Source of the DNA: an uncultured Chloroflexales bacterium
GTDB taxonomy: Bacteria; Chloroflexota; Chloroflexia; Chloroflexales; Chloroflexaceae
Assembly (NCBI GenBank): GCA_937967405.1
Contig: CALCJV010000007.1
Location: 1-64,000 of the forward strand
DNA length: 64,000 nt
Direction: 5' to 3'
Shown: positions 3,914-44,684 of the stretch, piece by piece
How the letters are laid out: the number at the start of each line of letters is the position of its first letter
Position numbering within the stretch: position 1 is the first letter of the stretch
Program-made: the position numbers and the translations under genes
The notes under the pieces: model-generated
The model's input: the letters and a program-made list of their open reading frames with translations, nothing else
What the model was told of the DNA's origin: nothing
The model's database searches: none

Positions 3914-5929
3914 ATGCTGGAAGTGCCGCAGCCTAATCACCACGACGGTCGGGAGCCAATTGATCTGTTGCTGATAGATGGAACGGTGGTCACGATGGAT
4001 GCCACCTACCAGATTCTCCACGCTGGTGCGGTCGCAGTGCATCAAGGTGCGATTGTGGCGATTGGCGAGCGGGCCAAACTGCTGGCCCGCTATACTGCGA
4101 CAGAGGTGCTGGACTGTAGCGGTTGTGCCGTCTTGCCGGGCTTGATCAATGGGCACGCGCACGTCCCGATGAGCCTGCTGCGCGGTATGGTTGCCGATTA
4201 TCAGCAGCTGGATGTGTGGCTACTCGGCTACATGTTTCCCGTCGAGAGCCAATTTGTCACGCCCGAATTTAGCCATGTGGGGGCGTTGCTCTCGTGTGCC
4301 GAGATGTTGCGCGGCGGCACGACTACGTTTGTGGATATGTACTACTTTGAAGAAGAGGTTGCCCGCGCTGCGGATATTGCCGGCATGCGGGCGATCTGTG
4401 GGCAGACGGTGCTGCGGATGCCAGCCCCCGATGCACCCGCGTATGATGATGGGCTGGAGCGGGCGCGGGCCTTCATTGAGGCGTGGCGCGGCCACCCGCG
4501 TATCACGCCTACAATTGCCCCCCACGCGCCCTACACCTGCACGGATCAGATTTACATCGAGGCGGCTGCACTGTGTGCCCACTTTAATGTGCCTCTGATT
4601 ACGCACCTGTCGGAGACGGCCCGCGAGGTGCAGGAGAGCCGCACCCTCAACGCGGCGACCCCGATTGGCTATGCCCACCGAGTTGGAGCCTTCAATGTCC
4701 CTTGTATCGCGGCCCACTGCGTCCATGCCACTGAGGATGATCTGCTCTTGATGCGGGCGCATGGTGTAGGGGTAGTTCCGTGTCCAAGCAGCAACCTGAA
4801 GCTCGCCAGTGGGATTGCTCCGTATCAACGGATGCTCGATGTCGGGGTTCACACAGGCTTGGGCACCGATGGGCCGGCAAGTAACGATGATCAGGATATG
4901 TTCACCGAAATCCACCTCGCGGCGATGCTGCCTAAAGGCTTGACCGGCGACCCGACGGTGATGCCAGCGCGGGATGCCCTGTCGCTAGCGACCAATCGTG
5001 GGGCAGCGGCCATCCATATGGCCCATCTGATCGGCTCGCTTGAAGTCGGCAAACGCGCCGACATCATTGTTGTGCAGCTCGATACCCTGCACGGTGCGCC
5101 GCGCTATACCTACAGCCCCGAAACAATCTACTCGCAACTTGTCTACAGTACCCGTTCGGCGGATGTCCGCGATGTGTTTGTGGATGGAGTTCGCCTGCTG
5201 CGCGATCACGAACTGCTCACGCTCGAGGTGGCTGAGATTATGCACCGTGCCCAGCAGATTGCCGATCAGATTAACGTCTTTCTGGCGGGGCGTGAGGAGA
5301 ATCTGCTGGACAAGATTCTGGCGATTGGTGGCGTGCGCCAAGCCGAGATTTTCGAAATCCAAGTCAAAGCACGGATTTGCGAAGCCGATATTGCTCGAAT
5401 CGAGGCTGGTTTGCACGCACCGGAGATCAGCATCACTAAAGCGAGTGAGCGGATGCAGTACGATACCTACTTTTTGTTTCACAAGCGTGAACGTGGGCGC
5501 ATCCGTATCCGCGAAGATCGCCGCCTCGATCCCGGCGCACGGCTCGACTCGAAGTATACGATCACCTTGATGGAAAATGGCAGCTTGGGCGATTATCCCT
5601 TTGCCATCCTGCTCTCGCGGGCCCGCTACACTGCTCCGGCCGATCACTCCACCCGCTTTTACCGCGAATACTTTCACCCTGATCAAGAGATCGAGATCGA
5701 GAAGCATCGTCGGCGGTGGCGCATCCTTTACCACAACAAAGACTTCGCGGTGAATATTGATCGGCTGATCGGGCACGCCCAACCGGGGCCGTTCCTCGAA
5801 ATCAAGAGCCGCACATGGGGTCGCCGTGATGCTGATGAACGGGCCGCGTTGATCGGCACGCTGTTGCAGCAGTGGGGCATAGCTACCGATAATTTGGTGA
5901 AGCAGGAATACATTGAGCTGGAGCGATAG
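3914..5929 (+). CDS. Amidohydrolase (MTA/SAH deaminase-like) fused to C-terminal CYTH-like domain
   Basis: N-terminal ~450 aa: GHAHVPMSLLRG, THLSETA, AAHCVHA, GTDGPASN, KRADIIVV. C-terminal ~195 aa (from ~5342): EIFEIQVKARI, YDTYFLFHKRERGRIRIRED, FLEIKSRT. Confidence 0.85.
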   Translation: MLEVPQPNHHDGREPIDLLLIDGTVVTMDATYQILHAGAVAVHQGAIVAIGERAKLLARYTATEVLDCSGCAVLPGLINGHAHVPMSLLRGMVADYQQLDVWLLGYMFPVESQFVTPEFSHVGALLSCAEMLRGGTTTFVDMYYFEEEVARAADIAGMRAICGQTVLRMPAPDAPAYDDGLERARAFIEAWRGHPRITPTIAPHAPYTCTDQIYIEAAALCAHFNVPLITHLSETAREVQESRTLNAATPIGYAHRVGAFNVPCIAAHCVHATEDDLLLMRAHGVGVVPCPSSNLKLASGIAPYQRMLDVGVHTGLGTDGPASNDDQDMFTEIHLAAMLPKGLTGDPTVMPARDALSLATNRGAAAIHMAHLIGSLEVGKRADIIVVQLDTLHGAPRYTYSPETIYSQLVYSTRSADVRDVFVDGVRLLRDHELLTLEVAEIMHRAQQIADQINVFLAGREENLLDKILAIGGVRQAEIFEIQVKARICEADIARIEAGLHAPEISITKASERMQYDTYFLFHKRERGRIRIREDRRLDPGARLDSKYTITLMENGSLGDYPFAILLSRARYTAPADHSTRFYREYFHPDQEIEIEKHRRRWRILYHNKDFAVNIDRLIGHAQPGPFLEIKSRTWGRRDADERAALIGTLLQQWGIATDNLVKQEYIELER

Positions 5930-5931
5930 CC

Positions 5932-6615
5932 ATGCGAGATCGGTGCCCACCCGCACTGCCAGAGCTGTACCTGATTGGCTTGACCGGCAATATTGCCTGC
6001 GGCAAAAGCACGGTGGTGCAGATGTTGCAGGCATTGGGGGCGTATACGCTCGATGCCGATGCGATCACGCACCAACTCCAAGCCCCGCAGCAGCCGGTCT
6101 ATGAGCAGATTGTAGCTGAGTTCGGGGTAGGTATTCTTGCTGCACCTGATGCGGACGGCAACCGCCCGCTGGATCGGAAGGCACTGGCCGCGATGGTGTT
6201 CAGCGATCCGGTGCAGCTCAAACGGCTGGAGGCGATTGTACATCCGGCCGTGCATCGGGCGATCTGGGCGTGGCTGGCACAGGTGCAGCAGCAGATCACG
6301 GAGGCGCAGATGCTGCCGAGCCAAATGCCGGTTGCGGTGATTGACGCGGTGAAGCTGATTGAGAGTGGCTGGAAGCAGCATGTACAGGCTGTGTGGGTGG
6401 TGACGTGTACGCCCCAGCAGCAGCTTGAACGGCTGATCCAGAACCGCGCTATGCCGGTGGCCGAAGCGCACCAGCGGATTGCTGCCCAGCCGCCCCAAGC
6501 CGAGCGCATAGCCTACGCTGATGTGGTGATTGACAATAGCCAGAGCCTTGAGCAGACGCGCCAGCAGGTGCAGGCGGCATGGCACGCGATCCAGCAGAAA
6601 GTAGCCCGCCCATGA
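5932..6615 (+). CDS. coaE: Dephospho-CoA kinase
   Basis: LIGLTGNIACGKSTVVQMLQALGAYTLDADAITHQL. Confidence 0.85.
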   Translation: MRDRCPPALPELYLIGLTGNIACGKSTVVQMLQALGAYTLDADAITHQLQAPQQPVYEQIVAEFGVGILAAPDADGNRPLDRKALAAMVFSDPVQLKRLEAIVHPAVHRAIWAWLAQVQQQITEAQMLPSQMPVAVIDAVKLIESGWKQHVQAVWVVTCTPQQQLERLIQNRAMPVAEAHQRIAAQPPQAERIAYADVVIDNSQSLEQTRQQVQAAWHAIQQKVARP

Positions 6616-44576: not shown

Positions 44577-44582
44577 AGGGTA

Positions 44583-44674
44583 GGCACAACGGAACGGCAG
44601 ATACTTGCTGAACCCCGCCAGGTTCGAGAGGAAGCAACGGTAGGCGAGTTCCTCTGGGTGTTCCAATGTGCCTT
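44583..44674 (+). ncRNA. ffs: Bacterial small SRP RNA (4.5S)
   Basis: Conserved domain IV: CTGAACCCCGCCAGGTTCGAGAGGAAGCAACGGTAGG; ends pair GGCACA...TGTGCC. Confidence 0.85.
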
Positions 44675-44684
44675 TCCTCAACGC

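Follow-up and report, generated by a model that had tools for sequence, protein, structure and literature searches.

A deaminase-like amidohydrolase joined to a divergent CYTH domain in Chloroflexota

The fusion gene and its surroundings

The window, the whole stretch of 64,000 nucleotides analysed here, encodes a protein in which an MTA/SAH-deaminase-like amidohydrolase is followed by a helical linker and a divergent CYTH, or triphosphate-tunnel, domain (Table 1). A previous sequence-only reading had described one 671-aa open reading frame joining both domains, and the frame indeed runs on the + strand without any internal stop. It had also called the architecture unfamiliar; in the literature we searched, no description of an amidohydrolase or deaminase fused to CYTH was found. 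Judged solely against this literature and the libraries searched, the fusion is a new arrangement of known kinds of domain. Pfam places Amidohydro_1 at residues 73-426 (E=1.9e-63) and CYTH (PF01928) at residues 481-647, the latter with E=1.8e-4 and 21.8-23.1 bits against a curated cut-off of 23.2.

Table 1 Features of the fusion gene and its downstream neighbour (window coordinates).
Feature	Position	Strand	Basis
Whole fused protein, 671 aa + stop	3914..5929	+	Uninterrupted frame; full-length relatives in other genomes
MTA/SAH-deaminase-like amidohydrolase, residues 1-455	3914..5278	+	Amidohydro_1, PDB matches, Foldseek
H81-x-H83, deaminase metal ligands	4154..4162	+	Kept in 75/75 fused proteins
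Helical linker, residues 456-474	5279..5335	+	Model secondary structure: helices 439-462, 464-471
Divergent CYTH / triphosphate-tunnel domain, residues 475-671	5336..5926	+	PF01928 in relatives; model and Foldseek
E481-I-Q483-V-K485 (ExExK position, here ExQxK)	5354..5368	+	E, Q and K each 75/75
R531-x-R533-E-D (phosphate-binding RxR)	5504..5518	+	75/75
K597-x-R599 (equivalent of SaTTM K110/R112)	5702..5710	+	75/75
E629-I-K631 (metal-binding ExE expected)	5798..5806	+	E and K each 75/75
coaE, dephospho-CoA kinase	5932..6615	+	PF01121 3.9e-47; downstream neighbour conserved in Chloroflexia

Upstream of the fusion gene, the window holds genes for a Fur-type regulator and a GAF histidine kinase; downstream follow coaE, an M20 peptidase and a ribosome hibernation factor. 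Among related loci, 31, all of Chloroflexia type, have coaE immediately downstream of the fusion gene and in the same orientation. In 12 Anaerolineae-type loci a CinA-type gene (MoCF_biosynth + CinA_KH) stands upstream on the same strand, within ~210 bases in all but one of them (11/12). Neither the window nor any of ten related loci contains a SAM or SAH riboswitch at the gathering threshold. Elsewhere in the window, a bacterial small SRP RNA lies at positions 44581-44677 of the + strand (50.6 bits).

The deaminase half and its candidate substrates

The closest solved structures by sequence are PDB 4f0r (3.5e-83), 4dzh, 4dyk and 4gbd. The nearest solved relatives of this half are MTA/SAH and adenosine deaminases; 4gbd has methylthio-coformycin bound. 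The AlphaFold model of the full protein (pLDDT 91, pTM 0.84) leads to the same structures in Foldseek, with TM by target of 0.96-0.97 for 4dzh, 4gbd and 4f0r, and 4dyk also matched. The amidohydrolase fold is found together with the HxH, His, His and Asp metal ligands and the catalytic Glu. Across 75 distinct fused proteins, the sample behind all conservation figures given here, residues H204, H231, E234, H268, D319, W102 and E111 are each invariant (75/75). We take H81, H83, H231, H268, D319, E234, H204, E111 and W102 to play the same roles as in TM0936-type enzymes.

This half is predicted to deaminate 5'-substituted adenosines (MTA / SAH / 5'-deoxyadenosine group). The substrate class named in the sequence-only reading, adenosine/MTA/SAH, is thus supported by fold and active-site residues; each of its members stays a candidate, since genes for the ordinary SAH, MTA and adenosine enzymes are present too. 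The PRK09045 score of the window protein, 420.9 bits, falls below the NCBIfam equivalog cut-off of 540, hence we claim no single named enzyme.

Known MTA / SAH / 5'-deoxyadenosine deaminases (PRK09045; 4gbd, 4f0r, 4dzh; T. maritima TM0936; M. jannaschii DadD) share the fold end to end and the invariant active-site residues. Those in the PDB stop after the amidohydrolase, whereas the window protein adds ~200 CYTH residues. They also differ at position 168, near the substrate loop, which is D or E in three solved deaminases but R or K in the window protein and in 74 of the 75 fused proteins overall. This basic residue fits a reading in which the deaminase acts on a nucleotide or dinucleotide (for example ADP-ribose, dephospho-CoA or NAD-like) and not on a free nucleoside, the phosphates of that substrate being held in the CYTH tunnel. 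The gene neighbours, coaE in Chloroflexia by definition and the cinA-type gene in Anaerolineae as we take it, both concern adenine-containing cofactors and point the same way. We nevertheless consider such a substrate very improbable: linkage of housekeeping genes is weak evidence, and four relatives that lack the fusion have N, Q, R and R at position 168, Arg thus occurring in two of them with no CYTH domain attached.

As to nucleoside substrates, SAHH, MTAP and ADA are all present in these genomes; no pathway gap therefore points to one substrate, and there are outlets for SAH, MTA and adenosine other than the fused deaminase. MTAP is common in Chloroflexota. Of 20 fusion-bearing genomes examined, 17 gave a readable base-site motif, always VTDYD or ITDYD, and three did not; this Asp-containing motif denotes adenine specificity. 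With all readable motifs of this kind, an MTA deaminase feeding methylthioinosine phosphorylase is unsupported. A separate ADA (PF00962) is encoded in genome G000 and in the other fusion-bearing genomes looked up, which rules out the fused protein as sole adenosine deaminase. SAHH occurs in 384 of 400 Chloroflexota genomes, and the fingerprint HxTxE, tied to SAH and not SIH in a 2024 study (PMC10978960), is seen in the fusion-bearing genomes read, G000 included, and likewise in fusion-free ones. This fingerprint rules out, as a general explanation, a SAH deaminase feeding S-inosylhomocysteine hydrolase in the M. jannaschii way. We lean towards 5'-deoxyadenosine or SAH as candidate substrates.

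One genome from the host's order (G174) has a second SAHH copy (L154, contig G174:C48) with the motif HITAK, between the SAH-preferring and SIH-preferring motifs. An ADA match (G174:C48:5314) begins shortly downstream of it on the same contig.

The CYTH half and its altered metal motifs

The assignment to CYTH is secure at the level of the family, drawing on matches in relatives as well as on a structural model. PF01928 is matched individually in 31 of 49 relatives of this half (E up to 0.1; best 2.2e-9) and TIGR00318 cyaB in 30 of the 49. The sequence-only reading had proposed comparing an AlphaFold model of the C-terminal half with CYTH structures. That comparison bears out the fold: the model (pLDDT 89, pTM 0.86) finds its best PDB matches among CYTH/TTM structures (3n0z, 2een, 7ns9, 5a5y; E down to 1.5e-8), namely class IV adenylyl cyclase, PH1819, SaTTM and AtTTM3. 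On this model, the second half has a CYTH / triphosphate-tunnel fold. A profile sequence search of solved structures with the same half returned a chance match only and no solved CYTH structure, and NCBIfam holds no model for it beyond the weak cyaB matches.

The CYTH motifs quoted from the letters alone are present, with E-x-Q-x-K formed by E481, Q483 and K485. The replacement of the second Glu of ExExK by Gln, pointed out at that stage, extends to every fused protein compared (Q483, 75/75). The change at the second metal motif to EIK had gone unremarked and is likewise invariant (75/75), so neither catalytic TTM signature, ExExK or the ExE of the last barrel strand, is found in any of the 75. 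D616 is invariant too (75/75). Residue equivalences throughout this half follow motif order via standalone Chloroflexota CYTHs and SaTTM, with no superposition. Those for RxR, K69 and R571 combine motif order with a profile alignment that is weak (hhalign probability 77%) and puts RxR in the wrong place; on this basis the K69 equivalent is lost, position 553 being M, I, T, L or V, and R571 (75/75) stands where standalone Chloroflexota CYTH domains have Glu. Ordinary ExExK frames were also seen at twelve further CYTH loci of Chloroflexota, and since these loci were picked by that pattern they are an illustration and not a count.

In SaTTM, the metals are coordinated by E5, E7 and both Glu of ExE (PMC8233210). 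Changes of E2, E4 or E169 in AtTTM3 and of E6 or E160 in YgiF strongly impair hydrolysis, changes of K76 and E90 lower it, and most basic TTM residues serve substrate binding (PMC4641920). Turnover of triphosphate by the CYTH half, one of the options in the sequence-only reading, is unlikely because the positions at which mutation strongly impairs characterised TTMs invariantly carry other residues here. With two of the four metal-binding acids lost, the domain would no longer act as a two-metal triphosphatase or cyclase. The invariance of the replacements suggests a function in use rather than decay.

By published sequence criteria (PMC8233210), the CYTH half is neither a class IV adenylyl cyclase nor a ThTPase. 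No HF precedes E481 in the four members compared, so the cyclase pattern HFxxxxExExK is absent from them; nor is there the small residue that class IV cyclases have at the first Arg of RxR, both Arg being invariant (75/75). The ThTPase motif W/YxRxR is missing as well: position 529 is Arg in the window protein, and among the fused proteins it is R in 50/75 and Y in 7/75.

Motif loss need not mean that catalysis is lost, because plant TTM1/2 lack the TTM signature and still hydrolyse pyrophosphate (PMC8233210). The CYTH half might similarly be an enzyme of altered chemistry, for example a TTM1/2-like pyrophosphatase or a hydrolase with Lys631 replacing one metal, which would make the protein bifunctional. 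The invariant new Q483 and K631 could form a changed active site, and the catalytic-type Arg residues of RxR are invariant too. We still find this unlikely, since characterised TTMs that lose metal ligands become inactive or far less active (PMC4641920) and the W/YxRxR aromatic shared by TTM1/2 and ThTPases is not conserved in the fused family. TTM1 and TTM2 resemble the window protein as multidomain CYTH proteins without the hallmark motif (PMC8233210), but their partner domain is of uridine/phosphoribulokinase type and not a deaminase. YgiF (CYTH-CHAD) is another bacterial CYTH joined to a further domain (PMC8233210); there CYTH is N-terminal and an active triphosphatase, whereas in the window protein it is C-terminal with changed metal motifs.

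Further down the Foldseek list of the CYTH model stand the Mediator chains Med18/Med20, a precedent for a non-enzymatic tunnel fold. The domain could accordingly be a purely structural module for oligomerisation or for a protein partner, as in Med18/Med20. We regard this as quite improbable, because the invariant residues are those of the tunnel (K485, R531, R533, K597, R599, E481, E629, D616), which argues that the domain has a ligand site and is more than a scaffold. The comparison with SaTTM, PH1819, AtTTM3 and class IV adenylyl cyclase agrees in fold, RxR and KxR, and the CYTH/TTM enzymes also share with the window protein the first Glu of both acidic motifs and the Asp of the penultimate strand. 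They differ in having ExExK, ExE and K69, where the window protein has ExQxK, EIK and no K69 equivalent.

A proposed role and the spread of the fusion

We propose, giving it about an even chance, that the fused protein is a working 5'-substituted-adenosine deaminase modulated or positioned by a metal-free, polyanion-binding and catalytically inactive CYTH domain. The metal-dependent deaminase half would act on nucleosides of the MTA / SAH / 5'-deoxyadenosine group. The CYTH half would keep its anion-binding tunnel, bind a phosphate-bearing ligand such as a nucleotide or a short polyphosphate with no need of the usual metals, and modulate or position the deaminase. We infer that the deaminase half is active and on which class of substrate, that the CYTH half has lost catalysis, that it binds a ligand and that the two halves are coupled; sensing or binding appears the most likely role of the CYTH half. 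The coupling of deamination to sensing or turnover, suggested in the sequence-only reading, thus survives in part: the fold and an intact deaminase active site are supported, turnover is disfavoured, and sensing is the more likely though inferred role.

A narrower version of the proposal, possible though rather doubtful, has the metal-free tunnel reading a cellular phosphate signal such as ATP, tripolyphosphate or an alarmone, and switching a SAM-linked nucleoside deaminase on or off. Clearance of methyl-cycle or radical-SAM by-products would then be regulated by energy/phosphate status, and by means of a fold that has so far been known chiefly from enzymes. Should the tunnel bind a ligand and govern the deaminase, a regulatory role would be added to the CYTH fold, and removal of SAM-derived nucleosides would be tied to phosphate or energy state. 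Two large classes of Chloroflexota have retained this old fusion, mostly in single copy and with an invariantly rewritten CYTH metal site, a caution against labelling such CYTH domains adenylate cyclases or triphosphatases.

A tblastn search of public genomes returned 79 loci, mostly matching near the whole query, with identity from 93% down to ~43%. The closest relatives are titled Chloroflexaceae, Roseiflexus, Chloroflexus, Oscillochloris and Herpetosiphon. In the host family, 38 of 41 genomes give a query match of some kind, and most of them, not all, include a near-full-length one. Of 400 Chloroflexota genomes, 89 gave a match in a profile search with the CYTH half, 88 of them among the 283 good genomes, and nearly always in single copy per genome. 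The matches of this search lie inside open frames of at least 657 aa in 88 of 90 cases, the two shorter frames being in G404 and G174, and none of the matches in these 400 genomes falls between E ~1e-72 and the cut-off of 1e-3. Frame lengths and this gap together indicate a sharply delimited CYTH type that, so far as observed, does not stand alone in Chloroflexota.

Separate trees of the deaminase and CYTH halves, both built from 49 non-redundant fused proteins without unfused outgroup, share 26 of 46 splits, and Chloroflexia form one clade in each. As the two are largely congruent, the fusion is old by these trees, and a single origin is the simplest reading. Among relatives of the deaminase without the fusion, the nearest found come from Acidobacteria and Dependentiae, at 44-46% identity. 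In a limited search beyond the phylum, fused copies in Riflebacteria (L061, L063, L065) fell inside Anaerolineae on the deaminase tree, and this nesting suggests that they were acquired by transfer.

Two further loci carry titles at odds with their content. In L062 (JAHHHY010000001.1), titled Pleurocapsa minor, a cyanobacterium, the fusion gene groups with Chloroflexi OLB15 and its neighbours match loci L060 and L066 of Chloroflexota; this contig of 1.02 Mb appears to be misbinned. L030 (JAAUTF010000457.1) bears the title Candidatus Gracilibacteria but is 70% identical to the window protein, has Chloroflexaceae-like neighbours and is probably misbinned. Lastly, CYTH matches lie in long open frames, 754 to 1484 aa, in the Chloroflexota genomes G366, G234 and G348, and other CYTH fusions may exist.
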